IMG/VR virus record: IMGVR_UViG_3300025881_000985
Span: 62,001-126,000 of that record
DNA from: a virus
Direction: 5' to 3' (one strand)
Length of the DNA stretch: 64,000 nucleotides
Positions within the stretch are counted from its first letter, which is position 1. Each line of letters opens with the position of its first letter. The notes below the pieces were generated by a model. That model saw only the letters and a program-made list of their open reading frames with translations, was not told the DNA's origin and made no database searches. This document shows, one piece after another, positions 2,791 through 43,122 of this stretch. A program made the position numbers and the translations under genes.

Positions 2791-5700
2791 ATGGCAATCG
2801 GTGAAGTTGCACGACATAAGTGGATAACACAAGGTGGAGATATCGGGACTGTTCCTGAACTTGAGTTCATTGACATTCCGCTTGAAGTTACCAATCCAAC
2901 TCAAGACAATATTATATTTGATTTAATTAGTGGTGAGTTGCCTCCTGGTGTGCAAATTGAACGTATGCCTGGTGCAATTCAAGGTGTTCCTGTTGTACTG
3001 GATCCATTACCAGTTGACGAAGCAAGAACATATCGTTTTAGTATTAGAGCTTCATCAACCTCAGGCATTGTTACAGACAGAAGTTTTGAAATAACTGTTA
3101 CTAACTTATTTCCTCCTTATATTACTCCTCGTACTGCCAACCTTGGTACAGTATTTGATGGAACATATTATAAGAAACAACTAAGTGCTACAGAACCAAA
3201 CCCAAATGCAGTATTGAATTGGACTGTAGCAAGTGGGCAACTACCACCAGGCATTACACTGAGTTCAAGCGGATTAATTAGTGGATATATTACAATTGAG
3301 TCCACTGATGCAGACAATGTTATTCCGGGTTACGATGCACAGAGTTCAGGTGGATCAGTAGCATTTTATGATGTAGCCGGTTGGGATACTTTAGGTCGCA
3401 GTAGAAATAGAAAATATACTTTTACTGTACAAGTATCTGATGGAAGCAGTGTTGATAGTTTAACTTATCAACTTGGTATTGCAAGTAAAATATTATTCAC
3501 AGCAGACCAGGATCATACATCTATTAGCGGTAGTGCAGAACAACCAATTGCTATTAGTGCAGACAACGACGAACTCTCAATAGATGCTGACAACAGATAC
3601 GTTCCGGTTATTACAACTCCTCCAGCAAGTTTACCACAAGTTAGACAAGAAAACTTCTTTGCATATAAATTTGATGCATTGGACTTTGAGGGAGACCCAA
3701 TTGAGTTCCAATTTAGATTGGCTGAGGGCGGAAGTTTTGATCAAGGTGGCGGTGCTATATTTGGTTGGAAAGATCCACGCAACGGTAATGGTGTCACTGG
3801 ACAATTTGAACCCAACGAAGGCAGAGCAAAAAACAACCCACGTACAGTACAGTATTTTGATACTGATGAACATGAACTAGCATATAACTTAATTACAGAA
3901 AATTATCCAGTAGGAAGTCAATTTGATATTATAGGTGTATGGTATGAAACCGACGCCGGTGTTGTTACTATATTTGAAGAAGGTGTTGACTTTACTGTTA
4001 ACGTAACCAACACATTGGTTACAGTAACTGATCCTGCTGATGTTCCAGACAATGGACGTCTTGCAGTTGACTTTTATATTATATTACCAGACAATACATT
4101 TGGTGTTGGTAGCGGATTAGACGAAGGACTTTATGATCAAAGTGAAAGCAAACTTCCACCAACATTAACAATTGATGCCAATGGCTGGCTTAATGGTTAT
4201 GTTGATCCTCAAGTTGAAGATAGAAAAGTATACGAATTTATTATTTCTGCTAACAAAATAGAAGATGCAACATACGAAAGTGCTCCTGTACAATTTGCTT
4301 TAACAATATTAGGTAGTTTAACTGATACAATTACTTGGGTAACTCCAACAGACTTGGGTTCACTTATTCCAGGTGAAGTAAGTCAGTTGAGTGTACAAGC
4401 AACCAGTGCCAACGGACAGGCAATTACATATAGTATTGAAGAAGACACAAAAGTTAATACACCACAAGGTTTAAGTTTAGATATATTACCAAATGGGTTT
4501 ATTAGTGGACGTACCTCGTTTAGAACATTTCAAATGGATTCAGGTGTAGTTACATTTGATAAAGGTAAAACTCTTTTTGATAATAAATACGAGTTCACTG
4601 TAACTGCTACCACTGTAGACGGATTAGTTAGTAGTAACAGAACATTTACTCTGCGTCTAAATCCACGTTACACAAGACCATATGAAAACTTGTATCTGAA
4701 AGCATTGCCAACACAAGCACAAAGACAATCATTCTTGGATATTGTAAACAACCAAGCAATATTCCCAGACAACTTGATATTCAGAAAAGAAGATCCATGG
4801 TTTGGTAGAGCTAAAACTATTAAGTTCCTTGCACTTGCTGGAGTTAATCCAAGCACACTTGCAAGTTATACCGAAGCCATTGACAAAAACCATTACACTA
4901 AAAAGATTGATTTTGGTAAAGTAAAAACAGCGAGAGCAGTTGATGAGTTCTACAACGTAAAATACGAAGTAGTATATGTTGAAGTTGAAGATCCGCAAAA
5001 CATCAATGATACTGATGTTACTTTGTCAAACAAAGTTGGAACAATAACTCCGCCAATGGGAGGACAGTTCTTCCTTGACAGTGAACAGCCAACAATTAAC
5101 AAATACATTGACGAACAGGGTGTGGAATACGATACTATCTATCCTAATACATTTGAAAATATGAATACTAGAGTTATCAATTCATTGGGCTATAGTGCTA
5201 GAGGTGTATTCCCAGACTGGATGTTAAGTGTACAAGAAGATAAAACAGTAATTGGATTTAAACGTGCGGTGGTATTGGCTTATACAGTACCGGGTGCAAG
5301 TAAGTTAATTGCTTATAGATTAAAAAGTAATAACGTAAGTTTCAGCAAAATTGAATTTGTTGTAGACAGATACCAACTTGATAACGTACTGAGTAAAAAC
5401 TTTGACATTCCGCAAAACCAGTTTCTACCAAGTGAAGAAACAACCTATGATAGACTATTAATTGGCCCAGGTGAACTACAATACCCAGTTACATATGCTG
5501 TTGAACAATCATTCGATAGTATTCATTTAAGAACCAAAGCATATATTAATGATAACCAAGCCGCCAATCCTTTATTACCTCCAGGAATTGATGGTACTAA
5601 GAATTACAAACATGGCGAAACTCTTATCTTTGCTAAACAGGAAGGTTTTGCTAATGTAGCAAGTCCTGATACAGATGGATGGGTCGAATATCAAAACTTA

Positions 5701-8136
5701 TTTGTTGGTGATATTCCAGGAGATGGAATTGAAAGTGAAGCCGTTACAGAAAATGGCGAGCGTGTTAGCAGTAGCCTTACAAGCGGAAATGCAAATTGGA
5801 CATTTAGTAATGGAACAGTAAGTATAAAAGCAACAGGGTTACCTTATCATAGTAGAGGCAATCCAGCGGCACCGTTTAATTCAGCCGCTCAATCATATAG
5901 TATGACATGGTCGAACCATGCCGGTAGAGATTATCCAAACTCAGGAACTAAAACACCATTACCATTGAACCATATTGGTTTTTGGCTAAACGGAGTTGCA
6001 ATTTATAACCCTGCAGGAGGTGATCGTGCTCCAATTGGTATGTCACCTATTGCAGGAATGAACTTTAACCTTGCTTTTCAAAGTGCGACTGACTTAGGAT
6101 ATTCTTTTGGAGATGATTTAGCTGGCGGTCATGCAGATGTTAACGGAGTGTATAGTTATAGAGATCGCACATTTACACAATCCTGGACAAGTGGAATTGG
6201 AGCAACAGACAATTCAGTTGGCGGTAAAGAATTAGAACAAATTCCTTATATAGGTAGCAACTTAGCTCACCCTGATGGACATAGTAAAATACTTGGTTGG
6301 TCATTAGACGGATATCCAATTTACGGACCTAATGGTTATACTAACTATAACGACAATACTTCAGCAGTAATTAGAATGACTAGTGCTTGGGCTATCAAAT
6401 CAGATTTTAGTCACAGGACTGGTGTTGCAAATGATCCATCAACATATCCATTGGGCATATTCATTGAAGATTTTGAACATGTAGGTGGCGGAACTCTTGA
6501 CAAGTGGAACGGAAGGTATTGTGTTACACCTGACTATCCAACTGGAACTTATGCTTACTTTGTTACAGAAGATGCTGACGGTGATGCAGTTTATCCATAT
6601 GTAATTGGCCAAGAGTATTACGGTTATGCAAGTGCGTTTGATATTAGCACTAGCAACAGTGGTTTAGGATTTGAACCAGCTGGCACTGATTTAATTAGTT
6701 CAGGGTCAATGACTGACTACGATGGTGTATTTGGATTTGATTCATATAAAGTTATTCCGGGTTTCCGTGAAAGAGGATTAACTATTTCACAATTACTATT
6801 AGTGAATACTGCGGCAAGTGGTTCAACTAGTTTTGATGTTGAATACCAATACGGAGCGGATCTAATAGGAAAAGCCTTTTTAGCACCTAGTAACGATGCC
6901 ATACCAGATAATACAAAAATCTTACAACAACAGACAGTTGATATTAGTGTAACGCCAGGCGTTGTAAGTTTAGTTACACGTCTTGTAGTTAACAACCCAA
7001 GTACTATTGGTTTAACCAAAGGTTCACCAGTTGATATTGTATCAGCAGTAACTTCAACACAGATTGGTGTTGGAGATACTATTATTGTTGACAGTATTCC
7101 AAGCGATCTAAAACCAGGTATGAGTATACAAGGAAAAAATATACCAGCTGAAACTTATATTAGAGCAGTTGATAGTGGTACAAATAGAATCGAAACTACT
7201 AGTCAACTTAGTACAGTAGAGAGCGGTACTATAATTAGATACCTACAAACAAATCAACGTGCTGGTATCTGGAGAATCAATATCACTGGAACACAAACAC
7301 TAGTAAACTTTGATCATACAGCTCATTATGCATTGAACTATAAATGGAGTGACATACATGGACAAGCCTGGAGTACATTCTTATTAAACAATCCTAATGC
7401 AATTGATGGTGTTCGTAGTATTGCTGACCTTCAAGATAAAGAACTTATTTTCCTAGGCGACATAGGTAACGAAGACGGCTGGACACCTAAGGATATATGG
7501 GACTTAACAAGGTATGATCCAGATGCAATCAGCGGAACCACTATTCCGTATCATAATAGACGTCAAGTTTGGAAACTAACATTCCAAGAAACAGATATAA
7601 TTATTAATCAGAGAGTTGCACCCAGTGACGTACTAGACTTTGATGCGTTCGATGAGGATAAGCAGTTTCAACCATTTATCCTTGGTAAAGAGTATATTAT
7701 GCAACTTACCCTAGTAACTGCAAAAGATGTAGAGCGTGGCGATAGAGTACGTGTTACGCTAGGAACATATAAAGATAAGGACATGTCACTTGATTTTGCT
7801 GATAATTACACTGAAACTGAAATAATTATATCAGATGAACTAGTTAGACTTGATTTTGTTCGTGAAATTGACGTTGGAACGAAGATTAAAGTAGCAAAAG
7901 GGCAGAGTTACGGTTTCTCTTTCCTAACGTATGATGCTACATTAGAGGCCGATCAAACCGTGCCAAAGTATAAATATTGGAAAGGGAGTGTAGAAGCAGA
8001 GCCCGGCACCGACAACAAAGACTATACCAGGTTTGATGGTGGAGGTACCCGTTTCTTCAATTACAGAGATAGTTATCATAAGCCTGAAGACGGTGATAAA
8101 TATATTAAATTCCCACAGATAGGAGTGTTTACATAA
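2791..8136 (+). CDS. Giant structural adhesin with Ig-like and YHYH domains
   Basis: A 1781-residue virion protein. The N-terminal third holds putative Ig-like (He_PIG type) domains, recognisable by repeated LPPG followed by G-x-I-x-G signatures (near residues 50-70 and 150-170). Around residues 1015-1270 is a YHYH-type domain: YHSRG, a long Gly/Asn-rich insert, then LGWSLDGYPIYGPNGY and GRYCVTPDYPTGTYAYFVT. The final 300 residues are mixed alpha/beta. Start ATG follows AAGGAA with 6-nt spacing. The next gene begins one base after its stop, so the two are probably co-translated. YHYH domains occur in marine phage and bacterial surface proteins, but their ligand is not known to me; a receptor-binding or baseplate-associated role is inferred. 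Confidence 0.65.
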   Translation: MAIGEVARHKWITQGGDIGTVPELEFIDIPLEVTNPTQDNIIFDLISGELPPGVQIERMPGAIQGVPVVLDPLPVDEARTYRFSIRASSTSGIVTDRSFEITVTNLFPPYITPRTANLGTVFDGTYYKKQLSATEPNPNAVLNWTVASGQLPPGITLSSSGLISGYITIESTDADNVIPGYDAQSSGGSVAFYDVAGWDTLGRSRNRKYTFTVQVSDGSSVDSLTYQLGIASKILFTADQDHTSISGSAEQPIAISADNDELSIDADNRYVPVITTPPASLPQVRQENFFAYKFDALDFEGDPIEFQFRLAEGGSFDQGGGAIFGWKDPRNGNGVTGQFEPNEGRAKNNPRTVQYFDTDEHELAYNLITENYPVGSQFDIIGVWYETDAGVVTIFEEGVDFTVNVTNTLVTVTDPADVPDNGRLAVDFYIILPDNTFGVGSGLDEGLYDQSESKLPPTLTIDANGWLNGYVDPQVEDRKVYEFIISANKIEDATYESAPVQFALTILGSLTDTITWVTPTDLGSLIPGEVSQLSVQATSANGQAITYSIEEDTKVNTPQGLSLDILPNGFISGRTSFRTFQMDSGVVTFDKGKTLFDNKYEFTVTATTVDGLVSSNRTFTLRLNPRYTRPYENLYLKALPTQAQRQSFLDIVNNQAIFPDNLIFRKEDPWFGRAKTIKFLALAGVNPSTLASYTEAIDKNHYTKKIDFGKVKTARAVDEFYNVKYEVVYVEVEDPQNINDTDVTLSNKVGTITPPMGGQFFLDSEQPTINKYIDEQGVEYDTIYPNTFENMNTRVINSLGYSARGVFPDWMLSVQEDKTVIGFKRAVVLAYTVPGASKLIAYRLKSNNVSFSKIEFVVDRYQLDNVLSKNFDIPQNQFLPSEETTYDRLLIGPGELQYPVTYAVEQSFDSIHLRTKAYINDNQAANPLLPPGIDGTKNYKHGETLIFAKQEGFANVASPDTDGWVEYQNLFVGDIPGDGIESEAVTENGERVSSSLTSGNANWTFSNGTVSIKATGLPYHSRGNPAAPFNSAAQSYSMTWSNHAGRDYPNSGTKTPLPLNHIGFWLNGVAIYNPAGGDRAPIGMSPIAGMNFNLAFQSATDLGYSFGDDLAGGHADVNGVYSYRDRTFTQSWTSGIGATDNSVGGKELEQIPYIGSNLAHPDGHSKILGWSLDGYPIYGPNGYTNYNDNTSAVIRMTSAWAIKSDFSHRTGVANDPSTYPLGIFIEDFEHVGGGTLDKWNGRYCVTPDYPTGTYAYFVTEDADGDAVYPYVIGQEYYGYASAFDISTSNSGLGFEPAGTDLISSGSMTDYDGVFGFDSYKVIPGFRERGLTISQLLLVNTAASGSTSFDVEYQYGADLIGKAFLAPSNDAIPDNTKILQQQTVDISVTPGVVSLVTRLVVNNPSTIGLTKGSPVDIVSAVTSTQIGVGDTIIVDSIPSDLKPGMSIQGKNIPAETYIRAVDSGTNRIETTSQLSTVESGTIIRYLQTNQRAGIWRINITGTQTLVNFDHTAHYALNYKWSDIHGQAWSTFLLNNPNAIDGVRSIADLQDKELIFLGDIGNEDGWTPKDIWDLTRYDPDAISGTTIPYHNRRQVWKLTFQETDIIINQRVAPSDVLDFDAFDEDKQFQPFILGKEYIMQLTLVTAKDVERGDRVRVTLGTYKDKDMSLDFADNYTETEIIISDELVRLDFVREIDVGTKIKVAKGQSYGFSFLTYDATLEADQTVPKYKYWKGSVEAEPGTDNKDYTRFDGGGTRFFNYRDSYHKPEDGDKYIKFPQIGVFT

Positions 8137-31088: not shown

Positions 31089-32873
31089 ATGTTTGTTGCA
31101 GATTCAATAGAAGATAAATCGGTCGTAGCAATACTTCCAGGTAGATTTCACCCTTTTCACAAAGGGCATGCCTATATGTACGAAACTCTTGTTAGCCAAT
31201 TTGGCAGAGACAGAGTTTGGATTGCAACAAGCAACAAAGTAGAACTTCCAAAATCCCCGTTTTCATACAGTGACAAGTTACAAATGATGCAACTTGCAGG
31301 TGTTCCTGCGGATCGTGTTGTTGAAACACGTAACATGTATACTGTTCCTGAATTAACAGATTCATTTAATAAAGAAAACACAGTCATTATCTTTGCTGTG
31401 AGCGATAAAGATATGGCCGAAGATCCCCGTTTTAGTTTTAAACCTAAAAAAGATGGCAGTTCTTCATACCTACAACCACTTCCCAGAGATTTAAAAAATG
31501 CAGAAACTATGGACAAACATGGTTATATTTCTGCGATTAAAACATTAAACTTTACAGTACTTGGTGAGCCTATGCGTAGTGCTACTGAAGTTCGCTCATT
31601 ATACGCAAAATCAAACGATGAAACACGTAAATCTTTGATCAAGGATTTATTTGGCGGGTACAATAATGAGGTTAAAGCTATCATGGATGCAAAATTACAA
31701 ACCAACGAACAACAGAGTATAGAAGAAGGATACGGCTTTGCGTCAAAGACTAATCTTGAAGAAGATTGGAAAAAAACTTTGGCCGCGGCGGCAGTAGCAG
31801 TAGGAACCTCAACTGCACCAATGCCTGCTCATGCTGATGCAGATATCCTAAGTGCAATTACCAAACTTACAAGAGCATTTGGTAGCATACAACGTATCAC
31901 TCCAAATAGTGTTAAAGGTGATATCAAAGGTGAAATTGGTAATCAAGCTCGTCGAGGAGATGCAAGTTCACAAAATCTTACAATACAAAATAGAGGCAAG
32001 ACACAAGTTTCTAAATTTAATAAATGGGACGGAAAACTTGGTAACCAAGAAAGTATTGAAACCGAAGCAGTGTTTACCCCAGACGATACTATTGTAACAG
32101 ATATTATGACCAAACTTGCTTCACTTGTTAAGAGGCCAGCAGGACAAAGTATGATTGGTCGCATGTTTAGCAAAAAGCCAGAACAGCCAACAGAAGTAGA
32201 AATTAAATTTCCAACAGGAAGAATGTCAGTTGATAAGTTTACTGCTAAAGCAGTACTTGATGCTTATGCTAAGATTAACCCTAAGAATCAAGGTAACATG
32301 GATCAACTGTTAGGCACGAAACAAGGGTTTAGTCAAATTGTTGACAAGCTAACAAAAGATGGAAAAATTAGAGAAGGTGTAGACATAAACGTTGCATTAG
32401 GGCAAATTATATTAGAGTCTAAAATTAACGAATACGGAGTCGGAATTATTACAAAACAAAATTCTACTCCAGATGTAAAACCCGGCGAGACACAAAGACA
32501 AGCCGCAAAGTTTGGTAATAAACTAAACAAGAAAGGTTTACCGCCAATGGTAAACGAACAGATTAAAACTATTAATAAAATAGGCGAAGAACTATATCAA
32601 ATTGATCGTGATGATCCTATGCTTAAGAGTCAAGTTCTTGTTCCAGGCGTAGGTAGAATGAATATAGATTCTTTACATAAAAATTTAGCTGAAAAGTTTT
32701 TAGACTTAGCTGACAAAATGAAAGCAATGAGTCCAGAACAAGCCGAACAAGCAAATTATCTCTTGCAAAAAAGTCCGTTACGTGTTATGTTAAATGCACT
32801 AAGTGATGCATATGCAGAGCTTGAAAATGTTCGACGCAAAGGTGGACGCAACAGCAGAGGTATTGGTGCATGA
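31089..32873 (+). CDS. Nucleotidyltransferase fused to a long phage-specific C-terminal region
   Basis: 594 residues. Residues 1-190 form a cytidylyltransferase/NMN-adenylyltransferase-like domain: LPGRFHPFHKGH with HxGH at 24-27, ATSNKVELPKSPFSYSDK, and SATEVRSLY near 165. The remaining 400 residues contain an Ala-rich hydrophobic stretch (about 235-255, TLAAAAVAVGTSTAPMPAHA) and helical segments with no recognised fold. The late box and neighbouring virion-type genes suggest a packaged or assembly-linked enzyme. Substrate unknown. Confidence 0.65.
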   Translation: MFVADSIEDKSVVAILPGRFHPFHKGHAYMYETLVSQFGRDRVWIATSNKVELPKSPFSYSDKLQMMQLAGVPADRVVETRNMYTVPELTDSFNKENTVIIFAVSDKDMAEDPRFSFKPKKDGSSSYLQPLPRDLKNAETMDKHGYISAIKTLNFTVLGEPMRSATEVRSLYAKSNDETRKSLIKDLFGGYNNEVKAIMDAKLQTNEQQSIEEGYGFASKTNLEEDWKKTLAAAAVAVGTSTAPMPAHADADILSAITKLTRAFGSIQRITPNSVKGDIKGEIGNQARRGDASSQNLTIQNRGKTQVSKFNKWDGKLGNQESIETEAVFTPDDTIVTDIMTKLASLVKRPAGQSMIGRMFSKKPEQPTEVEIKFPTGRMSVDKFTAKAVLDAYAKINPKNQGNMDQLLGTKQGFSQIVDKLTKDGKIREGVDINVALGQIILESKINEYGVGIITKQNSTPDVKPGETQRQAAKFGNKLNKKGLPPMVNEQIKTINKIGEELYQIDRDDPMLKSQVLVPGVGRMNIDSLHKNLAEKFLDLADKMKAMSPEQAEQANYLLQKSPLRVMLNALSDAYAELENVRRKGGRNSRGIGA

Positions 32874-33225: not shown

Positions 33226-33678
33226 ATGAAATCATCACATTTTGTTGCTGAAAGATCAGATATGTCAGAAAAAGCACTGACAATGGATCTTGACCATGAA
33301 GTTCAGATGGCAAGACAGCAATGCTACAATGCGGCAAAAGACGCAATTAGAATTCATGAACTACTTAAAGAACGCAATGAAATTGAAGGATTAGAAGGTT
33401 GGATACAATCTAAGATTACACAAGCACACGAGATGCTTAGTGCCGCCGCTGATGCCCTTGAATACGAACAAATTGAAAAAAGCCAAGATGATGTAGTAGC
33501 TGTTCCAGATGTTGACCCTATGGCATTTGAAGAGAAAGCTGAATCATTATACAACGAAGCACTAGATGAAACAACTTCTTCATCTGGTATCGCTGTTGGA
33601 GGAAGTAATGTTTTACCTATTGGAGACCCTCCGTTAAAAAGAAAAAAATCTAAAAAAACTGAAGCGGAGAAAGTATAA
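33226..33678 (+). CDS. Conserved helical phage protein
   Basis: 150 residues. LDHEVQMARQQCYNAAKDAI and LEGWIQSKITQAHEMLSAAA then LEYE match a small protein I recall from T4-like cyanophages (DHEVxMA...EGWVQS). The C terminus is a basic tail (KRKKSKKTEAEK). Probably a virion-interior protein. Overlaps the next gene by one base. Confidence 0.55.
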   Translation: MKSSHFVAERSDMSEKALTMDLDHEVQMARQQCYNAAKDAIRIHELLKERNEIEGLEGWIQSKITQAHEMLSAAADALEYEQIEKSQDDVVAVPDVDPMAFEEKAESLYNEALDETTSSSGIAVGGSNVLPIGDPPLKRKKSKKTEAEKV

Positions 33679-34664
33679 TGAGTGATTTTTATAAATTAGT
33701 CGAGCATCTACGTTCACTGGAAGACCATAATGAACAGACAACCAAAACTCTACACGAAAATAGAATGGGCTTCAAAGACTTAGATAAACTAGGCAGAGAT
33801 AATGCTAGTAAAGTGGACCACGAAGCCCGTCGCCAGGGCAGTGCTGACATGGAGCCAGGTGATGCTGATCGACTACGTTATAAAGTAGCAAAAGAAATGG
33901 GATTAGCAGAAGTAGAAGAACAAGGTAGATCATTCCAAGACCTTCTAACTTTAATGGACGACGAAGTTGTTGAAGCTTTTGATAAAGTGGATAGAATTAC
34001 AGATCCACAAGAGCTCAACCTTTACGATGAAGAAGACATAGAAGCCGCTAGTAACATGAGTGCAGAAGAACTTAAAGACGAGTTGTTGATGGATATCTAT
34101 CATTTAATGGATATGGCCAGTGATGACTTTACTGATAATGATCATATTGCAGATGAAATGGGCGATTACTTTGCCAACATGCATGTGAAAGGTGACGATG
34201 CATCATTAAGTTGTTATGCCGCAATGAGAGACATGATTGATGCAGATCCAGCAGACGTTTATGAAACAGGTAAGCAATGTCTTAAAATATTAGGTGCTCA
34301 GGAACATGAAGATAATGTTCGTGGCAATAAAGGACCAACTAAGTTGGCCGTCGGCAAAAGAAAAATAGAATCACGTGGGAAAGCAGGTGAACTGCAACAA
34401 CGTATTAACGAACTACAAAAACAACTTGATTCTTTTAAACAGTTAGATGAAATGGATCCACCAGATCCAGAAGAGATTAAAAAGCAAAACATTATTAATA
34501 CCAATATGAATTCACTAAAATCATCAGGACTTGATATTGATGTTAGTAAACCAGCAGATGACCCTAAAAATGCTGAAGAGATCGGTGCAAAAGTACAAGT
34601 AGCTATGGGCGACCCAGCTCTAGCAAATCAAGTCAAGGGTGTTCTAAGTAAAATTAAAGACTAG
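33678..34664 (+). CDS. Acidic helical protein, probably virion-associated
   Basis: 328 residues, strongly acidic and Met-rich (EDIEAASNMSAEELKDELLM), with a coiled coil near 235-265 (LQQRINELQKQLDSFKQL). Residues 45-60 are basic. Lies in a late-type run of three large helical proteins. Function unknown. Confidence 0.5.
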   Translation: MSDFYKLVEHLRSLEDHNEQTTKTLHENRMGFKDLDKLGRDNASKVDHEARRQGSADMEPGDADRLRYKVAKEMGLAEVEEQGRSFQDLLTLMDDEVVEAFDKVDRITDPQELNLYDEEDIEAASNMSAEELKDELLMDIYHLMDMASDDFTDNDHIADEMGDYFANMHVKGDDASLSCYAAMRDMIDADPADVYETGKQCLKILGAQEHEDNVRGNKGPTKLAVGKRKIESRGKAGELQQRINELQKQLDSFKQLDEMDPPDPEEIKKQNIINTNMNSLKSSGLDIDVSKPADDPKNAEEIGAKVQVAMGDPALANQVKGVLSKIKD

Positions 34665-34675
34665 GAAAAAGAAAA

Positions 34676-36439
34676 ATGCTATTATCAGAATTTAAACCAA
34701 CAAAAAAAGCAACAAAGGTTGTTGAAAGTCGTATCACTGAAGAACCAATGGAATTTGGCCCTGAGACCGGAAACGAACTATACCCAGCTGGTTATGAAAA
34801 TGACGGAAGATTAATTTTACATGTTGTTACTGAATTATTACCTCGCATCAAAGATGATCAAATGTCATTGGATGTTATGAAAGCAGTTGATGCAATCGAA
34901 GCAGGAAAAGGAAACAAAGCAGACATTAAAACAGTAATGGGCGTTTACAAAGAAGCTGATAAACAAGGCATTACTAAAAAGTACAAAGATGCTATTGGTA
35001 AATTTGATCAAGACTACAAAGATGATGATGGCGAAGACGACCTTGAAGAGTCAGACATTGATCAAATTGCAGACGTTGGAAAAGTCTATTCTAAGATCAA
35101 TAAAATGAAAATGGATTTAGTTGACAAAGGCATGGAGCCAGAAGATGCACAGGACGAAGCATGTGAAAAATATGATTGTGATCCATCAATGTACGACAAA
35201 TATGTTGAAATGAAGAGAGATGAAAGAGAAGGTACAAAGAAAGAAAGCAAATACGGTAAGAAAAAATACGAAGCGGTTGGACAGTACGCAGATCCAATCC
35301 ACGATTTAATTGAAGAATTAGGCAGTCATCAGGTAGTAATGGATGAACTTATTCGTTATTTAGACGGAGATACTATAAAAGACTTTGTAGCAGACTTCCG
35401 TAGACATCACGAAATGGACGATCCAAGGTACATGGATGATGAAAATCTTCTAAAATCTGAAGGAAACGAATTTTCAGGCAAACGCCAGGCCGCTATTGAT
35501 GCAGGCAAAGATGAGTTTGAAGTTGGCGGAAAGAAATACAAAGTTGAGGCAGAACATAAATTTACAAAAAACTCAGTTACCGAAGAAGCAGATGATGATG
35601 CCGCTCGTGAGTTGGAACTGTATGCAGAAAATGACGAATCTCTTTACAGACAGAGTTATGTTCCTATTGCAAAGAACCTAAGCAAGAAGTTTAAGAAGGG
35701 TGTTTACGACAGTGAACTAGCCAAGAAACTTTGGAAGTATCATGCAGACAGAGCCGCACAAAAGTATGGCATGGACCACGCTGGTGGATCAAAAGAAGGA
35801 CTACGTATGTTTAGTCCTGATACACGTAGAGCATTTGCACGTAGCCTTGAAGATTATTGGCACGATGAAATGAAAAGTGGTAACTTTATGGAATCAGCAG
35901 TAACAGAATACGAAGGTGCATCGCAAGAAGACGTTGCAGGAGCGATAACACACCGTTTTAAAATGAACACAGATTTATTATCTAAAGCACTAAAAAAAGA
36001 AGGTGGCATTGACGCACTGATAATGGCTATTGATGATGTAGCAGAATGGCATGCTGGTGCAGAAGAATTAGGTTCAAGTGATGTTAGCATTATGGTACGT
36101 GAAGTTATGGCTCAATTGGGAATAACAGAACGCAGTCTTTCAGGCTTAAGAAACTCTAGTGCATTTGATGGCAAAGACCGAATGATGGCACTACTAGATA
36201 AAAATAAAAAATTAAACGACAAAGAAAAAGAAGAAGAAAGAATTAAAAAAGCAACTTTTGGTGAAGGGGCAATGATGGTATGTAAGCATTGTGGAGATGA
36301 AATGCACAAGCCTACAACAAATTGCGAATGTGATTGCAATGATGAAAACGGAGATCATTGGATCACAAAAGAATCTTACACCGAAAACCAAGATAAAATA
36401 GTTAAAGAATACAAAGACGCAGGCTACGTCACAAAATAA
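34676..36439 (+). CDS. Large acidic phage protein with C-terminal Cys/His cluster
   Basis: 587 residues, highly charged. It contains a short DEFEVGGKKYKVE strand segment of a type I associate with internal virion proteins of marine T4-like phages, and a C-terminal cluster CKHCGDEMHKPTTNCECDC (about 542-560) that could bind zinc. Several stretches are rich in Asp-Asp-Asp/Glu. A virion-interior role is inferred. Confidence 0.5.
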   Translation: MLLSEFKPTKKATKVVESRITEEPMEFGPETGNELYPAGYENDGRLILHVVTELLPRIKDDQMSLDVMKAVDAIEAGKGNKADIKTVMGVYKEADKQGITKKYKDAIGKFDQDYKDDDGEDDLEESDIDQIADVGKVYSKINKMKMDLVDKGMEPEDAQDEACEKYDCDPSMYDKYVEMKRDEREGTKKESKYGKKKYEAVGQYADPIHDLIEELGSHQVVMDELIRYLDGDTIKDFVADFRRHHEMDDPRYMDDENLLKSEGNEFSGKRQAAIDAGKDEFEVGGKKYKVEAEHKFTKNSVTEEADDDAARELELYAENDESLYRQSYVPIAKNLSKKFKKGVYDSELAKKLWKYHADRAAQKYGMDHAGGSKEGLRMFSPDTRRAFARSLEDYWHDEMKSGNFMESAVTEYEGASQEDVAGAITHRFKMNTDLLSKALKKEGGIDALIMAIDDVAEWHAGAEELGSSDVSIMVREVMAQLGITERSLSGLRNSSAFDGKDRMMALLDKNKKLNDKEKEEERIKKATFGEGAMMVCKHCGDEMHKPTTNCECDCNDENGDHWITKESYTENQDKIVKEYKDAGYVTK

Positions 36440-36458: not shown

Positions 36459-36478
36459 TAGCAGTGTAAATACTGCTA
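36459..36478 (+). promoter_or_regulatory. Hairpin and late-type box touching the start of A1
   Basis: TAGCAGT-GTAAAT-ACTGCTA is a perfect 7-bp hairpin whose last base is the A of the A1 start codon. The late-type box TAAATA (36467-36472) is inside it. No ribosome binding site is present. Confidence 0.5.
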
Positions 36479-37212
36479 TGAGCAACTATAATGCACAACA
36501 AGAAAAACTCGGTTTCGCATTAGTTAGTTCTAATCGGAACCGTATTTTTTTCTACCACAAAAACTACGAAGTTACTAAACGTTTACAATTACATTTTTTA
36601 CGAAATGATCTATTGTATCTAGTCCCTGTGACTTTAAAAATGTTGCACCGACAACGATTGCTTAACAGGAAGAAACAACAAAACAACAATCGTGTTGATA
36701 AAGAATTTGATTTTTATAGTTGTGTAAACTATACATTTAATAATGCTAAAGTATTACAGGTTGAACTTGATGTTGCTCCGTTTAGGCAAAGAAAAATGCA
36801 CATCATCCAAACTGCTACAGATGCCACCAACGAAGACAACAACATACATCAAAATTTGATATCAGCATCTAAGTATATTGAATCATTTAAAACAGCTATT
36901 GATCAACGAGAAGCAATACTAGACGAACAGTTTTCATATACTATTAAAGGATACGAAATGTTCCAGACGTTTTGCCAAGAGCAATTTACAAATTCACAAC
37001 TTGATAATATGTTTGAAATTGACATTGCAGACGAAAAACGATATAAATCACAAATGCGTGAATTGCGTATAAAGGTAACAGATGCTATTATGGAAATGAA
37101 CTTTACTGTTGATCCTGATACCTATAATGTACTGTTTAAAAATACAATAAAAGAAATTACCAACAAAGCAAACAAATACGAACAATCTGTGCTTGGAGCG
37201 GTAAATCAATGA
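36478..37212 (+). CDS. A1: first copy of the array protein A
   Basis: 244 residues. The N-terminal 45 residues (FALVSSNRNRIFFYHKNYEV then TKRLQ and LLYLVPV) align with A2 (38517) and A3 (40422), so the three are paralogues. The remainder is helical and charged. No known domain. Only in-frame ATG fits; it lacks a ribosome site. Overlaps B1 by ATGA, so A and B are made together and probably interact. Function unknown. Confidence 0.7.
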   Translation: MSNYNAQQEKLGFALVSSNRNRIFFYHKNYEVTKRLQLHFLRNDLLYLVPVTLKMLHRQRLLNRKKQQNNNRVDKEFDFYSCVNYTFNNAKVLQVELDVAPFRQRKMHIIQTATDATNEDNNIHQNLISASKYIESFKTAIDQREAILDEQFSYTIKGYEMFQTFCQEQFTNSQLDNMFEIDIADEKRYKSQMRELRIKVTDAIMEMNFTVDPDTYNVLFKNTIKEITNKANKYEQSVLGAVNQ

Positions 37213-38390
37213 TGACCGCTGAAGATTATTTTAAAGGAAATCGTTTAGTTGACAACAGTTACATTGGTATTGCACTTGACAACGAAGATATGGGAAAGTA
37301 TGGGAACTATTGGCTATCAAGTTTTAAAAACATTCCTATGCTCAATGATATACGTAGTCGCAGTCTTAAATTTACCACGCCATGGTTAAACGATGAACAC
37401 CCTGATTATATAAAATTACCCAAGTTATCAACTACTGCTAAAAAATTAGACGATATCTTAGACGAACGTGCAATTGAGCTACACAAAATTGCAATACGAG
37501 ATAATAAAAAGATATGGATTATGTGGAGTGGTGGCATTGATTCAACAACCATGCTTACAGCATTTATTAAGAATATCCCAAGTAACGAATTAAAAGATCG
37601 ATATAGTGTTATTATGAGTGCTAATAGTATTGCTGAGAACTATTACTTTTTTAAGCACTATGTAGATGGAAAGTTTAATTTAATTAACTGGTTAAACTTA
37701 GACATCAGTTCTGAATTGTTTAAAGATACTATTGTACTACATGGAGATCCAGCGAATGCATTATTAAGTGTACCAACTGTGGCCGCATTTGCATCATTGG
37801 TTCCTAGCGGAGAACATTTACTTCCGTTTAGAGAGAACATCGGCACTTTAATTGATGGACTTGAAGCAATGGTAGTTGGCAATGGCAAAGAATCCTTACC
37901 TGGTTGGGCGGAATGGTATATTGAAAAGTTAGTTAATGCAATACCAATTACTGACAATGCTACAAGTATTGCTTCGTTTTGGTGGTGGCATTATGTAAAC
38001 TTTAAATGGCACGGAAGTATGTTACGCCCATTTTTCTTTACAAGAGAAAGCACTGATCAACCCATACACGAAGACGAGTTCAAGTACTATTATGATACAG
38101 TATTCTATGTTAATGAAGATTTCCAAAATTGGAGTTATAGTAATATTGACGAAATAGTTAAAACACCAAGCGACTATAAACCATTAATGAGACAGTACAT
38201 ACATACTTTAACCAAGGACGATCTTTATTCAACCTATAAAAAGTTTATGGCCAGTAGACGCACAAACTTAAACCAAGCTATACTTGAACAAACACTTCCA
38301 TTTGTATACGATTCTAATTGGATTGGACACAAGTTTGATAAGAACTCCAAAAATATAGTACGAGAATTATTACATGCCTTTGAAGGATAG
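37209..38390 (+). CDS. B1: asparagine-synthetase-like PP-loop enzyme
   Basis: 393 residues. WIMWSGGIDSTTML carries the PP-loop SGGIDS (107-112) that binds ATP pyrophosphate in asparagine synthetase, beta-lactam synthetase and lasso-peptide cyclase families. HGDPAN (178-183) occupies the place of the second motif but differs from HGDPGD in B2 and B3. Further shared landmarks are WWWHYVNFKW and NWSYSN. No glutaminase domain is present. Expected chemistry is adenylation of a carboxylate followed by amide formation; the substrate is unknown. Confidence 0.75.
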   Translation: MMTAEDYFKGNRLVDNSYIGIALDNEDMGKYGNYWLSSFKNIPMLNDIRSRSLKFTTPWLNDEHPDYIKLPKLSTTAKKLDDILDERAIELHKIAIRDNKKIWIMWSGGIDSTTMLTAFIKNIPSNELKDRYSVIMSANSIAENYYFFKHYVDGKFNLINWLNLDISSELFKDTIVLHGDPANALLSVPTVAAFASLVPSGEHLLPFRENIGTLIDGLEAMVVGNGKESLPGWAEWYIEKLVNAIPITDNATSIASFWWWHYVNFKWHGSMLRPFFFTRESTDQPIHEDEFKYYYDTVFYVNEDFQNWSYSNIDEIVKTPSDYKPLMRQYIHTLTKDDLYSTYKKFMASRRTNLNQAILEQTLPFVYDSNWIGHKFDKNSKNIVRELLHAFEG

Positions 38391-38517
38391 AATTATAAGA
38401 TCAGCAATTTTATTGTTGACAATCATAGCACTCACTGCTATAATGATAAATGTAATACCACCAGGTGATCCTGATTATCCACCGGGGCATACACTAGGAA
38501 GGCATATGTTACATTAA
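38374..38517 (+). CDS. Tiny membrane protein inside the A-B array
   Basis: 47 residues: MPLKDRIIRS, a membrane segment (about 11-28, AILLLTIIALTAIMINVI) and a Pro/Gly/His-rich tail. It overlaps B1 by 17 nt and joins A2 through TAATG. The close coupling supports translation, although a sigma70-like promoter lies in the same stretch. Confidence 0.5.
   Translation: MPLKDRIIRSAILLLTIIALTAIMINVIPPGDPDYPPGHTLGRHMLH
38416..38444 (+). promoter_or_regulatory. Consensus sigma70 promoter inside the small membrane gene
   Basis: TTGACA (38416-38421), 17-bp spacer, TATAAT (38439-38444): a perfect match in both boxes. It would start transcription about 65 nt before A2. Confidence 0.6.
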
Positions 38518-39245
38518 TGTTTGGTTTATTAAGTGTACATCAAAACTATTTTTTAACTGTTGGTGAATACAATTCACTTAAACGGACACAGCATATAATT
38601 GGCTCACAGTTGCCTTGTTTGTTTGTTGACTTTGATTTAATTCAAACACGTGATGCTGACAAAATATCTAAACTTAATTTTAAAGATTATGCTGGAAGTT
38701 TTAGACTTAAAAAGTTCCTTGAGTTAGATACAGTTGGTACTAAGATAGTTCCAAAGTTTGATGATGCTTTTATTAGTACACGTGAACACTTTGGTCTTAA
38801 ACCTATTACTGACACACAAGAGATGATGGTTACTCACATATCTCTGTTGCATGAATTTATTAATATACATTGGAAAGAGCTTGATGTATATAAGAAGCAT
38901 CGAGACAAAGGCAACGATCAAAAAATTAACGGTATAAATGCTTTTTCAGATTTTGTTATTGAACAGACCGGAGCCGACGGTTTTATTAACGAATTAGTTG
39001 AATACGAAACACAACAGATTCAAGCAAACACAGGTGTATTGGGAAATCATACAAAACACTTGCAACAGAGTTTAATGAATATAAACTATAGCAATGTTAA
39101 CTTACACGATTTGATAGCAAGATTAAACCAAGAGATTCAAGCTATTCCTCCAATCTTTGCATTTGGGCAAAAAAGGATAAGCGAAATGCTACAACGCCAA
39201 GCACAAAAAGCTCTGCTTATGGCAAGGAAATCAATGAATGCCTAG
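38517..39245 (+). CDS. A2: second copy of the array protein A
   Basis: 242 residues; N terminus FGLLSVHQNYFLTVGEYNSL aligns with A1 and A3. The C-terminal part shares ETQ...LNQEIQAIP with A3 (ETD...LTQELNSIP). Ends in basic helices. Overlaps B2 by 8 nt. Function unknown. Confidence 0.7.
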   Translation: MFGLLSVHQNYFLTVGEYNSLKRTQHIIGSQLPCLFVDFDLIQTRDADKISKLNFKDYAGSFRLKKFLELDTVGTKIVPKFDDAFISTREHFGLKPITDTQEMMVTHISLLHEFINIHWKELDVYKKHRDKGNDQKINGINAFSDFVIEQTGADGFINELVEYETQQIQANTGVLGNHTKHLQQSLMNINYSNVNLHDLIARLNQEIQAIPPIFAFGQKRISEMLQRQAQKALLMARKSMNA

Positions 39246-40425
39246 TGCTGAAGAATACTTTTACAAGAAAATTACTGACAGTATGGCCGACAGTCGGATG
39301 GTACAATCTATTGCTATGTATCCAACTGAGTTTAAAAACAAAAATGCTACATATTGGCAGAGTTTAAATCGTTGTATTATTGGAGTAGCTGACTGGAGAT
39401 CACGTGTAGGTAAATTTGAAAACCCATGGAATGCAAGTACTAGCCCAGAGTTTGCTCCGCCGGCACTTGCATATACTCCAGATACGTTTGAAGACATTGC
39501 AAACCACAGAGCATTAGAATTAATTGATGAAGCTAAAAATTCTAATCGTAGACTTCTTTTATTATGGAGTGGTGGCATTGATAGTACATTTGTACTTACA
39601 AGTTTTATTAAAAACATAGAACCTGCTGATAGAGAACTGATTATTATATGTTGCAACTTTACTAGCATATTTGAAAACACACAGTTTTATGTTAACTACA
39701 TTAGTAATCAATTTAGATGTATGCCGTACCAATACTTTGATTTAACTCCTGAATTGCTAGACAACTATATTGTAATACACGGAGACCCAGGTGACTGTTT
39801 ACAAGGTCCTAGTATTCCTGCGTATGCAACATTTATTGAGCAAGGTGTACATAAAGAACCATGGAAAAACTATGTTGATCAAATAGCGGAAAGCATACAA
39901 CCAGACCCAAGCCATCCATATTATGCAGAAGGATTTGGCAATTGGTTTACTCAAAGAGTTTGCGAAAACTTGGAAGAGATTCAACCCGAGAATGTTACAA
40001 GTATTGCAGACTGGTGGTGGTGGACCTACTATAACTTTAAGTGGGAATTTTCATGCCAACGTGCTTTCTTCTTTAGTCGTAGAGATCCAACAACAGAGTT
40101 TACTCCTGCACATATTGCAGACTTTGCTCGTAACACTTACTTTAACACGGCCGATTGGCAACATTGGAGTTATAGTAATCTTGACAATTTAATTGGCCTG
40201 GATAGAAGTAACCATAAACATTTTGCTCGTAATTATATACTCGAACTTGATGGCAATGATGTTTATTACTCAACTAAAATTAAAACAGCAGGAGCTCCAG
40301 CAGACATAATTACTAGGAGAGACAATGACATTCCTTTCTATTTTGACAAGAACTGGAAAGGGCATTATTGGTCAGAAACGGCTGTTGAAGAAGTGAGTAT
40401 GTCATTATTAGGTAGATTTCAATGA
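39238..40425 (+). CDS. B2: asparagine-synthetase-like PP-loop enzyme
   Basis: 395 residues with both family motifs intact: SGGIDS (111-116) and HGDPGDCLQGPS (181-192), the latter replacing the GxGxDExxGG loop of AsnB. SIADWWWWTYYNFKWEFSCQ and HWSYSNLDN are shared with B1 and B3. N-terminal 100 residues have a conserved W-x-R-x-G-x-F-x-x-PW segment. Coupled by overlaps to A2 and A3. Predicted ATP-dependent amide-forming enzyme. Confidence 0.75.
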   Translation: MPSAEEYFYKKITDSMADSRMVQSIAMYPTEFKNKNATYWQSLNRCIIGVADWRSRVGKFENPWNASTSPEFAPPALAYTPDTFEDIANHRALELIDEAKNSNRRLLLLWSGGIDSTFVLTSFIKNIEPADRELIIICCNFTSIFENTQFYVNYISNQFRCMPYQYFDLTPELLDNYIVIHGDPGDCLQGPSIPAYATFIEQGVHKEPWKNYVDQIAESIQPDPSHPYYAEGFGNWFTQRVCENLEEIQPENVTSIADWWWWTYYNFKWEFSCQRAFFFSRRDPTTEFTPAHIADFARNTYFNTADWQHWSYSNLDNLIGLDRSNHKHFARNYILELDGNDVYYSTKIKTAGAPADIITRRDNDIPFYFDKNWKGHYWSETAVEEVSMSLLGRFQ

Positions 40426-41108
40426 GCGAACTTTATGCATTGTATAATGTTAAGGCAAATAAGTTTTTGGTAACTGATCGCAGTTATGAAATGCTAAAAA
40501 CAATTCAGTTTATCTTTTCACATCGAATACTATTCTATTGTGTCAGATTGAATGATGTACACGGATATCGTGATGGTTTACTTGCTAAAGGAAGACATAC
40601 CAAAATTGGATTTGCAGATCCACAATTGATTAATATTAGCACCGACATTCATGCAAAAAGTGATGGTAAAATTAAATTTGTATCCAGTCCAAATCACAGT
40701 GATGTAAACGAAAAATTTAGCAAACAAGCAGAATTCTATAGAGACTTCTTACGTGTGTTTAACAAAGAATATGGATATTTTCAAGATATAGTACGTACAC
40801 GTAGTCGTACACAAAAGAACGGCCTAACTCAATTGACAGAGTATACTAAATTTTTAATGCCAGACGACGAAGCACTTCGTAACTTAATAGCTCAAGAGAC
40901 TGACTATAACTTTAGTGTTATGAAATACTTGAGACAATTCAAAGGAGAGGTCATTGATAAACTACAGAGTCTTGATTTAGAACTAGAAGTAGGTGACATG
41001 GTTAAACAGTTAACACAAGAATTAAATAGTATTCCTGTTAAATGTCACACTCAACGTTATGTAACACCTAAAGTATTGGAGTGGCTTGATGAAAACTATA
41101 ATATGTGA
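40422..41108 (+). CDS. A3: third copy of the array protein A
   Basis: 228 residues starting ELYALYNVKANKFLVTDRSY, aligning with A1 and A2. It overlaps B2 by ATGA and is separated from B3 by the small gene at 41141. Function unknown. Confidence 0.7.
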   Translation: MSELYALYNVKANKFLVTDRSYEMLKTIQFIFSHRILFYCVRLNDVHGYRDGLLAKGRHTKIGFADPQLINISTDIHAKSDGKIKFVSSPNHSDVNEKFSKQAEFYRDFLRVFNKEYGYFQDIVRTRSRTQKNGLTQLTEYTKFLMPDDEALRNLIAQETDYNFSVMKYLRQFKGEVIDKLQSLDLELEVGDMVKQLTQELNSIPVKCHTQRYVTPKVLEWLDENYNM

Positions 41109-41140
41109 ATGGAACAATATGATTGGAAGGAAGTAGGATT

Positions 41141-41398
41141 ATGAGTGACAACGAAGACATGAAAATTGACGATGTTCAAAAACAAATATGGAATCTAATA
41201 GATAGACAATTTGCCGAAGAAACATCACAAGAGCAACTGTATGTAACAGGTGCGGTGTTACTACAAACTGCTATTGAATTATACAGTGTAATATTAGAAG
41301 ATGACGATATTCAAAGATTGTTTGATAGTGCTACTGACAGCATTCCAGACCTCCGCCAACGAATGCAAGATCGTCTTGGAACACGAGTTATTCATTAA
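41141..41398 (+). CDS. Small acidic protein between A3 and B3
   Basis: 85 residues; ATG at 41141 with AGG 5 nt upstream chosen over an upstream TTG. Helical and acidic (QLYVTGAVLLQTAIELYSVI, then LEDDDIQRLFD). It ends exactly where B3 begins. I recall similar short helical proteins in marine T4-like phages. Function unknown. Confidence 0.6.
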   Translation: MSDNEDMKIDDVQKQIWNLIDRQFAEETSQEQLYVTGAVLLQTAIELYSVILEDDDIQRLFDSATDSIPDLRQRMQDRLGTRVIH

Positions 41399-42583
41399 AT
41401 GAAAGCCGTTGATCAACATATTGATGAAATTACTAACAATGCATGTATGGTAGACAATATGCTTATTGAACACCTTGATGTTAAAAACCCATACGGAAAT
41501 CATTGGCAACGATATAGCAGACTCAATATCGGAGTTAAAGATGTTAGGCCTCGTGTTGGTACGTTTACAACTCCATGGAACACACCTAATAGAGATCTTT
41601 GGAGAATGCCAGAATTATATTATATTGATGATAAACTATCAGATGTACTTGATGAACGTGCAATCGAACTATTCAATTTGGCTAAAAACACCAATAGAGA
41701 CATACACATTATGTGGTCAGGAGGAATTGACAGCTCAGGTGTACTTGTGTCATTTCTTAAAACATTAGATCCAGCAGATAGAGATATTCTCACAGTAGTA
41801 ATGAACACTGATAGTTACTTGGAGAATCCTGACTTTTACAGGAACCATATCAGTAATAAACTAAAAATTAAATACCTCAATACTATTGATGTTAACAACG
41901 AATTCCTTAGTAAGAGCATGTTGTTACATGGTGATCCGGGTGATTGTTTATACGGGCCAAGCATTGGCGCCTTTGCACACTTAATACCTGATGGGAAACA
42001 CCTATTACCAGCAAACGAGAATAGACATTTAATTAAAACCTTTTATGACCGTCAGGTAAGCAGATGGGCACACCCAGACTTTGGTGAATGGTATGTTAAC
42101 AAAGTTGCAGACAACTTTGCTGAAGCTGGTTTAGAAAATGCAAGTACTATTGCTGATTATTGGTGGTGGCATTATTTTAATCTCAAGTATCAATTCTCAA
42201 TGCAGAGACCGTTACAGCATCTTAAAGGAAATTATAAAGATGCACTTGAACCATCATTGTACGATCGTTTTATACGTGAAGTATTTTTTCACACAGATCG
42301 TATGCAACGTTGGAGTTATAGCAACTTACATACCTTCTATGAAAAGATACATCTTGGCGACCCTGGTACTAAATGGCAAGCAAGAGACTATCTATACGAT
42401 TTTGATAAAAACGATCGATATTACTACCATAAGGTTAAGATATCGAGTCAAGCGAGCGATAAAGAACGCAGAATGTTAGATATCAGTCCGTTTTATTACG
42501 ATCGTTATAACATGGGACACTATCCATGGGAAGAAGGTGTTACAGAAGCAATCACACACTTTTTGGAAGAATATCAGGGTTGA
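41399..42583 (+). CDS. B3: asparagine-synthetase-like PP-loop enzyme
   Basis: 394 residues with SGGIDS (107-112) and HGDPGDCLYGPS (177-188). YWWWHYFNLKYQFSMQRP and RWSYSNLH match B1/B2. Starts directly after the preceding stop (TAAATG). Last gene of the array; a sigma70 promoter for the replication genes follows within its end. Confidence 0.75.
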   Translation: MKAVDQHIDEITNNACMVDNMLIEHLDVKNPYGNHWQRYSRLNIGVKDVRPRVGTFTTPWNTPNRDLWRMPELYYIDDKLSDVLDERAIELFNLAKNTNRDIHIMWSGGIDSSGVLVSFLKTLDPADRDILTVVMNTDSYLENPDFYRNHISNKLKIKYLNTIDVNNEFLSKSMLLHGDPGDCLYGPSIGAFAHLIPDGKHLLPANENRHLIKTFYDRQVSRWAHPDFGEWYVNKVADNFAEAGLENASTIADYWWWHYFNLKYQFSMQRPLQHLKGNYKDALEPSLYDRFIREVFFHTDRMQRWSYSNLHTFYEKIHLGDPGTKWQARDYLYDFDKNDRYYYHKVKISSQASDKERRMLDISPFYYDRYNMGHYPWEEGVTEAITHFLEEYQG

Positions 42584-42608
42584 CAAACAACAATTACTGT
42601 TATATAAT
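42580..42608 (+). promoter_or_regulatory. Consensus sigma70 promoter of the replication operon
   Basis: TTGACA (42580-42585), 17-bp spacer, TATAAT (42603-42608), starting in the stop codon of B3, with AAGGAG before the ATG at 42634. Confidence 0.85.
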
Positions 42609-42633: not shown

Positions 42634-42888
42634 ATGACTATGTTTAGCTCAGAACAAAAAGCAAAACTTACACAAGTAATCAATGAAGGGATTCAGGTCA
42701 AGCAAGAAGTAGAAGATCTGAATGCTGGACTTAGTGATACAGTTAAAGCTATTGCTGAGGAAATGGAAATTAAACCTTCTACTTTAAAAAAAGCAATTAA
42801 TATTGCACACAAAAGTGGACTAGGTGATGCAAACGCAGAACACGAGGTACTAAACGACATTCTTGAGACTGTCGGAAAGACCTTGTAA
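42634..42888 (+). CDS. Small DsbA-like DNA-binding protein
   Basis: 84 residues, helical: INEGIQVKQEVEDLNAGLSD, AEEMEIKPSTLKKAINIAHKSG. The order resembles T4 DsbA, a small double-stranded DNA-binding protein, with a possible helix-turn-helix (MEIKPSTLKKAI). Expressed from a consensus promoter. Assignment is tentative. Confidence 0.5.
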   Translation: MTMFSSEQKAKLTQVINEGIQVKQEVEDLNAGLSDTVKAIAEEMEIKPSTLKKAINIAHKSGLGDANAEHEVLNDILETVGKTL

Positions 42889-43122
42889 ATGGAAGTCAAG
42901 CCATACCAAAAATTGGCTTGGAGTGCTACAGCGGGATTGATTCTTGCAAGTTTATTTGCAAGTTTCGTCCCGCATCTCTTGATCCATCATGTGCTCTTTA
43001 TTGTTAGCAATGCACTGTGGACAGCCGTAGGAATATTATGGAAAGAAAAGAGCTTGATTGTTCTGAACTTTTCGCTTACTATAGTGTACATATTAGGATT
43101 GGTGTATAATGAGTTATATTGA
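42889..43122 (+). CDS. Small multi-pass membrane protein
   Basis: 77 residues, with about three hydrophobic segments (13-30, 34-50, 57-74) and little else. It starts right after the preceding stop and overlaps the polymerase gene by 14 nt. Function unknown. Confidence 0.6.
   Translation: MEVKPYQKLAWSATAGLILASLFASFVPHLLIHHVLFIVSNALWTAVGILWKEKSLIVLNFSLTIVYILGLVYNELY

Follow-up and report, generated by a model that had tools for sequence, protein, structure and literature searches.

The 64,000-nucleotide stretch of viral DNA analysed here (the window; positions 62,001 to 126,000 of the IMG/VR record IMGVR_UViG_3300025881_000985) carries at 36478-42583 an array of paired genes, A and B, in the order A1-B1, P, A2-B2, A3, S, B3, all on the plus strand. 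A1 (36478-37212) encodes a partner protein of 244 amino acids (aa) without a known fold and overlaps by 4 bases with B1 (37209-38390), a predicted PP-loop enzyme of the asparagine synthetase B (AsnB) class (393 aa, with SGGIDS and the second motif HGDPAN). In the B1-A2 gap lies P (38374-38517), a 47-aa peptide with a hydrophobic N-terminal stretch and the conserved tail PPGDxxxPPGHTLGRHML, the stop codon of which overlaps the start of A2 (TAATG). The second pair consists of A2 (38517-39245, 242 aa) and B2 (39238-40425, 395 aa), which overlap by 8 bases, and a further 4-base overlap couples B2 to A3 (40422-41108, 228 aa). A3 is followed by the small open reading frame (ORF) S (41123-41398; 91 aa from TTG or 85 aa from the ATG at 41141) and by B3 (41399-42583, 394 aa, HGDPGDCLYG); B2 and B3, like B1, are predicted AsnB-class PP-loop enzymes. 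The coordinates and protein sizes in an initial annotation of the window were confirmed, and its two small extra genes correspond to S and P. A profile search of the whole record, which has 194,556 bases and is possibly a fragment, uncovered no further A or B genes.

Two sigma-70-type promoter-like sites with 12 of 12 consensus positions (TTGACA-17-TATAAT) are found on the same strand, one inside P and upstream of A2 (38416-38444) and one at the end of the array (42580-42608), upstream of the genes for a helix-turn-helix (HTH)-like protein and DNA polymerase. Sites resembling the first were recognised by eye in three related loci (L006, L007 and L008). In the scan as a whole, promoter-like sites were not in excess (27 versus a mean of 32.1 in shuffled sequences). 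The array might be expressed early by the host polymerase.

Predicted fold of the B enzymes and their A partners

The three B proteins align end to end with pairwise identities of 30-36% (32% to B1 for both B2 and B3), and WSGGIDS and HGDP are invariant among them. Across 93 aligned B proteins the invariant positions are R56, SGGxDS, W310, K327 and K347, and no cysteine is invariant or nearly so. Of the 190 B proteins with 300 aa or more, 188 keep the motif SGGxD[ST]; the two exceptions are the first tandem B of L165 (5511-9933) and of L211 (5783-10010), which lack the PP-loop motif and may be non-catalytic copies. When the B profile was aligned to 12 AsnB proteins (probability 95, expectation value (E) 3e-8), SGGIDS and IHGDPGD were paired with LSGDGGDELFGG, IHGDPGD corresponding to the AsnB motif GDGGDELFGG. 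The second AsnB motif in its form GDGxDELFGGY was aligned to HGDPGDCLQG, and it is degenerate in B1 (HGDPAN). With loose settings, hhalign aligned the C-terminal lysines unconvincingly, and K347 is not claimed as the AsnB catalytic lysine.

The structure predicted for B2 (mean predicted local distance difference test score, pLDDT, 94.3) was matched best in VIA-align by the hydroxyamidotransferase TsnB9 (Z 12.6, root-mean-square deviation 4.9, 270 residues aligned). Further enzymes of the AsnB class followed, namely human ASNS (Z 11.3), beta-lactam synthetase (10.9), AsnB (10.8) and carbapenam synthetase (10.0), while the scores of other PP-loop folds were 9.0 for GMP synthetase, 7.6 for NAD synthetase and 7.0 for LarE. 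The matches of B to ASNS, AsnB and beta-lactam synthetase begin at residue 66-77, and the N-terminal class II glutaminase domain is not present. The two glutaminase models tried (PF13522 and PF00117) also had no match in the window's record (G000) or in a 228-kb record with an identical array (G001). That B is similar to beta-lactam synthetase and to the synthetase half of AsnB but has no glutaminase domain had been stated in the initial annotation, and both the VIA-align scores and the profile alignment agree with this. The likeness presumably extends to lasso cyclases, which share the AsnB-derived fold; the lack of a lasso cyclase in the VIA-align list is no evidence either way. None of the array proteins reached the cut-off of a Pfam or NCBIfam model. 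B is AsnB-like in its modelled fold and its motifs, but it is not filed as an asparagine synthetase. A comparison of the B profile with the sequences in PDB returned insignificant matches (E at least 0.13), including prion proteins, which were taken as chance.

A different reading of the PP-loop is that B transfers sulfur or modifies nucleobases in the manner of 3'-phosphoadenosine-5'-phosphosulfate (PAPS) reductase, QueC, LarE or MnmA, with tRNA, DNA or a cofactor as its target and A serving as an adaptor to nucleic acids. The best PHROG matches of the window B proteins were PAPS reductase (E 5.8e-5) and QueC, LarE was the commonest NCBIfam match among the 93 B members (26 members, best E 5.5e-4, 0.034 for B1 of the window; CysD matched 5 and QueC 1), and the B relatives of the cultivated Pseudomonas phage Cygsa01 are annotated as tRNA 2-thiouridylase MnmA, an annotation we consider doubtful. 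However, the PHROG matches were weak and covered only 20-83 residues around the PP-loop, and no family-wide sequence match to PAPS reductase, QueC, LarE or MnmA was found. LarE also scored well below the range of the AsnB-class enzymes in the structural comparison (Z 7.0 versus 10-12.6). Moreover, LarE and MnmA have a conserved catalytic cysteine, and no cysteine is invariant or nearly so in the 93 B members. We regard a sulfur-transfer or nucleobase-modifying role as unlikely.

The modelled fold class of B is that of AsnB-derived enzymes, and P, or perhaps A, could be conceived as a peptide substrate, in a maturation system in which B acts like a lasso-type cyclase. P is conserved together with A2-B2: the 47-codon ORF recurs 5' of A2 in L006, L007 and L008, and a diverged form is present in L009/L010 and L011, loci that show two pairs only. 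Among the four closer sequences the ratio of non-synonymous to synonymous substitution was 0.20-0.57 over the whole ORF, and in the last 20 codons 0.45-0.81 synonymous changes per site were accompanied by only 0.02-0.12 non-synonymous ones, a pattern which supports P as a coding gene. Against a role as substrate, P was found in a single subclade and there only at the second pair, with its one hydrophobic stretch and conserved tail it resembles by eye a membrane anchor, and no lasso family is among the NCBIfam matches. The PHROG and Pfam scans of the array genes gave no match to a protease family. Such a maturation system is, in our opinion, highly improbable. The second small gene, S, was found in four loci, all of them near-identical contigs.

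The A proteins are considerably more diverged, A2 and A3 sharing 20% and 17% identity with A1, respectively. Nevertheless, once relatives were included by iteration, a profile built from any one of them recovered the other two at E < 1e-58, as expected from the initial proposal that A1-A3 are one family. The model of A3 (pLDDT 92.8) combines a small alpha/beta N-terminal part with long helices. In BFVD the best matches of A were four uncharacterised proteins of uncultured phages (probability 1.00, E 4.5e-5 to 0.05), and NCBIfam matches stayed far below cut-off. A resemblance to the helical hairpin of CHMP3/CdvB, suggested by Foldseek and VIA-align, was rejected because the tool itself cautions against Z values in the range of the 8.3 obtained and the comparison hardly covered the N-terminal part; the best PDB match of the A profile, a designed helical protein (E 0.0056), was not trusted. 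Between the window and its relatives, A identities were 29-60% where B identities were 51-77%, suggesting that A evolves faster than B. The distances of A and B were correlated (Spearman 0.52 over 36 pairs, the entries being non-independent).

Distribution and genomic site of the array

The first search returned 15 viral loci. With a B profile, 249 relatives were found in 321 candidate stretches of IMG/VR, the best 80 of which represent 72 distinct loci, and 41 bacterial loci were obtained as well; near-identical contigs are included in these and the following counts. A recognised A gene was situated directly 5' of B in 65 of the 98 viral B genes with upstream room (a count that leaves out 11 B genes without such room and locus L001). 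The iterated A profile added A genes in more distant phages, and in L064, L065, L070 and L118 the overlapping gene 5' of B has, by eye, an A-like start.

In a tree of the B proteins from 36 pairs, orthologous groups were recovered for B1 (5 rows, support 100/99), B2 (9 rows, 91/88) and B3 (9 rows, 98/99), and the order of these orthologs is constant across phages. The tree of the A proteins from the same number of pairs showed the same subgroups, the nine A2 rows being joined weakly (54/88) and the A1 and A3 subgroups being unjoined. More than a chance arrangement is involved, since contigs other than that of the window repeat the array with three, two or one pair and the B copies can be assigned to orthologous groups of old origin. 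The three pairs of this large environmental phage are old, diverged duplicates of one two-gene unit. The idea that three diverged copies were kept side by side for three substrates or for a hetero-complex is consistent with this picture.

The location of the array was assessed in 80 DNA polymerase loci. In 51 of them at least 2.2 kb is available upstream of the polymerase gene, and 14 of these carry the cassette 5' of it; of the remaining 29, B was seen in 2 and was absent from 27, which brings the loci with B to 16 of 80. Where at least 7.5 kb is available upstream, the patterns were ABABAB in three loci (near-identical to the window), ABAB in four and AB in one. Since 14 of the 51 polymerase relatives carry it, with one to three pairs, the array is an accessory cassette inserted at one site upstream of the DNA polymerase gene. 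The named polymerases that best match that of the window belong to large phages, Sinorhizobium phage Phosso being the first (50%). Relatives of B2 were absent from named phages, searches there with the B proteins of L064 and L198 found Cygsa01 alone, and plasmids held no relative of the L064 B.

A cassette that is accessory, keeps a fixed site and varies in copy number, with one component, A, evolving faster than the other, could also be a defence, counter-defence or toxin-antitoxin unit in which A serves as a sensor or toxin. The sole PADLOC match, however, was DndC on B3 (E 0.021), and the coupling of B to solute-binding proteins described below would be unexpected for such a unit. We consider this explanation very unlikely.

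Several other genes were noted around the array. Between the array and the DNA polymerase gene (42634-43122) are genes for the HTH-like protein and for a small DUF6552 protein; relatives of the former, which matches a PHROG transcriptional regulator and, below its cut-off, Pfam Phage_DsbA, occur in 43 viral loci, and relatives of the latter in 12. The three large genes 5' of the array (31089-32873, 33678-34664 and 34676-36439) form one family linked by blastp, with 76 members in 36 viral loci. Further away, 2791-8136 encodes a protein of 1781 aa in which Pfam recognises a YHYH and a putative Ig domain. The window contains no tRNA and no Rfam match at the gathering score.

Solute-binding proteins, tail fibres and bacterial neighbours of B

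In related phages, B genes are accompanied by solute-binding proteins of two transporter types. Of 10 records that contain A-B or a B relative, 8 encode DctP of the tripartite ATP-independent periplasmic (TRAP) type (PF03480 above cut-off) and 5 encode TctC (PF03401 above cut-off). When 10 records with polymerase relatives chosen for having no visible cassette were searched (both sets were hand-picked, mainly for length), DctP was present in 2, in one of them together with a B about 3.5 kb away. Among records of at least 100 kb the numbers were 7 of 8 in the first set versus 2 of 6 in the second. Some polymerases of the second set are at a contig end, where the absence of the cassette rests on a whole-record search; that search found B in one record (G021) and weak matches limited to the PP-loop in two.

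The association was also evaluated in the reciprocal direction. A profile of the phage DctP proteins found 480 relatives, and in the best 80 viral loci, which were kept, a match to the B profile flanked DctP in 37, or in 35 by a stricter rule, two of the 37 scoring better as another PP-loop family. DctP was detected in none of the 80 polymerase loci (1.00 Mb in total, versus 1.13 Mb in the 80 DctP loci). Over all loci, 22 B genes are directly 3' of DctP, in 14 of these cases the two genes overlap by 4 bases, and at 80% identity the DctP-coupled B genes collapse to 7 clusters; TctC is directly 3' of B in three cases. No N-terminal export signal was visible by eye, without a predictor, on the listed phage DctP proteins. 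Those linked to B start with a MKTIRWVLAHEP-type sequence, some behind a short non-hydrophobic extension, and the record of the window encodes, outside the window, two DctP-type proteins without an evident signal peptide. The TRAP arginine, which we take to be the carboxylate-binding residue, is present in L198 and in 4 of 8 aligned phage DctP proteins. A search of the 80 DctP loci for DctM-like genes, made with a single query, found none.

Transporter genes were seen together in some records. In the record of the window, but outside the window, L115 (5097-8434, at about 49-52 kb of G000) and L116 (4915-5943) contain a TctA permease (Pfam), a neighbour with a signal-like start and two DctP genes. 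In L117 (3-9551), which belongs to G001, a desaturase (by Pfam; the others by eye) accompanies a TRAP operon, with DctP identified by Pfam and DctQ and DctM by eye, and the block also includes another PP-loop enzyme (393 aa) and TctA-like and TctC-like proteins. An A-like gene (by eye) and B occur near a TRAP operon in L118. L151 (4758-17000) resembles a small biosynthetic cluster, combining B with two further PP-loop families, DctP, two TctC, an AMP-binding enzyme, BKACE, a Rieske protein and, by eye, a dehydrogenase. The five DctP matches in named 'phage' records, namely a Salmonella contig of 515 kb and four short Escherichia or fecal pieces without annotation, look like host DNA and were set aside, and the TctC of L058 had no relative in named phages.

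Some B relatives are also situated behind tail fibre genes. They are 3' of such genes, with a short gene between, in prophage-like loci of Xanthomonas, Endozoicomonas and Motiliproteus, and a few genes behind one in a likewise prophage-like locus of Parasutterella. In Cygsa01 (PP179332.1; L216 6422-8571), two B relatives (E 5.7e-26 and 3.1e-18) are directly 3' of the genes for a tail fibre and a glycine-rich protein, and L165 and L211 have the order B-B, an adhesin-like gene (by eye), B, DctP. These arrangements would be in accordance with modules that modify receptor-binding proteins of the phage, or cell-surface targets, by adding a small acid to tail adhesins. In the window, however, the array is beside the DNA polymerase gene behind host-type promoter-like sites and away from tail genes, PHROG gave no match for the adhesin-like gene of L165, and the Endozoicomonas and Motiliproteus proteins are only weak relatives (E 4e-7 and 7e-9). 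In addition, genes behind tail fibres are often unrelated cargo. We consider such a modifying role quite unlikely.

In bacteria, a cupin-like protein, with a match to Pfam Cupin_2 that falls just short of the cut-off, is encoded in 25 of the 41 loci; its gene is no more than 120 bases away from B in 12 of these loci and no more than 700 bases away in the other 13. The bacterial contigs (L074-L111; Bacteroidota, Pirellulaceae and Verrucomicrobiota among others) often have a small third gene, and B, the cupin-like protein and the small gene seem to constitute an unnamed conserved gene group. Altogether 118 neighbour genes were listed, of which chosen ones were scanned; a protein of the tryptophan-halogenase family (PHROG) is encoded directly 5' of a phage B gene in L179 (182-1378).

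Proposed activity and comparison with known systems

Enzymes of the AsnB class adenylate a carboxylate, and TRAP binding proteins bind carboxylates. We propose that the A-B pair is a carboxylate-activating ligase module composed of the enzyme B and its cognate partner A, a reading to which we assign a probability of slightly less than one half (about 0.48). B would bind ATP at its PP-loop, activate a small organic acid by adenylation of its carboxyl group and pass the acyl group on to an amine or a comparable acceptor, in analogy to AsnB, beta-lactam synthetase and hydroxyamidotransferases. As the searches gave no glutaminase, the ammonia or amine would be supplied from elsewhere. The substrates are probably carboxylates, given that the coupled partner in related phages is a TRAP-type carboxylate-binding protein without an evident export signal. 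A, as the translationally coupled cognate partner, could provide specificity by docking the acceptor or the substrate, and the three pairs may represent three substrate/acceptor combinations or a three-part assembly line.

A number of observations weigh against this proposal. By sequence, Pfam Asn_synthase (PF00733) had no match to B1-B3 and matched 5 of the 93 B members at E ≤ 0.01, and in NCBIfam the LarE model was matched more often than asparagine synthase (26 versus 2 of the 93, all weakly). Foldseek alone gave no PDB match below E 1e-3, the best being ASNS at 2.2e-3. As for the partners, no A was recognised directly 5' of 33 of the 98 viral B genes, four of these being B3 copies (in the window and L002-L004) in which S is located between A3 and B3. 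The TRAP arginine is missing, by eye, in 4 of the 8 aligned phage DctP proteins, and the DctP genes in the record of the window are about 26 and 46 kb from the array. Finally, the records compared for DctP are unequal in length and some are near duplicates (G000/G001 and G006/G007 look so).

The ligase proposal can be extended to a pathway in which phages import organic acids, hold them on cytosolic TRAP-type binding proteins and have families of AsnB-like ligases, with their cognate partners, attach them to specific targets, possibly the tips of tail adhesins. We judge this scenario to be distinctly unlikely. If true, it would equip the virion with chemical ligands that host receptors recognise and would mean that several aquatic phage lineages have a small-molecule chemistry of their own.

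The initial annotation knew of no described phage system with this layout, and none was found in the named phage records or in the literature searched, with subscription journals mostly outside its scope. Beyond that annotation, the present data show that B is linked to TRAP and tripartite tricarboxylate transporter (TTT) solute-binding proteins, that the cassette is accessory and that P is conserved, and the two B relatives behind the tail fibre of Cygsa01 are new. A PP-loop family with its own partners, unnamed at the Pfam and NCBIfam cut-offs for the window copies, recurs in environmental phages and some bacteria, and it is also represented in a cultivated phage. The recurrent coupling to a carboxylate-binding protein is a direct lead to the substrate of B, and it hints at undescribed phage chemistry on small organic acids. 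The TTT transporter gene tctA has been reported on contigs of marine SUP05 viruses with its role stated as unknown, and the passage concerned draws no link to PP-loop enzymes (PMC4164917). Through the coupling of B to a carboxylate-binding protein, phage transporter genes with a role described as unknown, such as this tctA (PMC4164917), become testable.

Among known systems, the synthetase domain of AsnB (PF00733) resembles B in the PP-loop SGGxDS, the second GDxxD motif region and the modelled fold, whereas B has no glutaminase domain, does not reach the Pfam model, and has an N-terminal extension of its own and a small upstream partner. TsnB9 is the best structural match (Z 12.6), but its chain has 576 residues and the identity is 9%. 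Beta-lactam and carbapenam synthetases share the AsnB-derived fold (Z 10-11); unlike these enzymes and the lasso cyclases, B has no glutaminase-like domain, and biosynthetic neighbours of the respective pathways were not seen among the array genes in the PHROG and Pfam scans. The phage solute-binding partners, in turn, are similar to DctP/SiaP of TRAP transporters, with PF03480 above cut-off and many PDB matches, but differ from them in having no signal peptide evident by eye and in being coupled, in the 22 cases described above, to a PP-loop enzyme.

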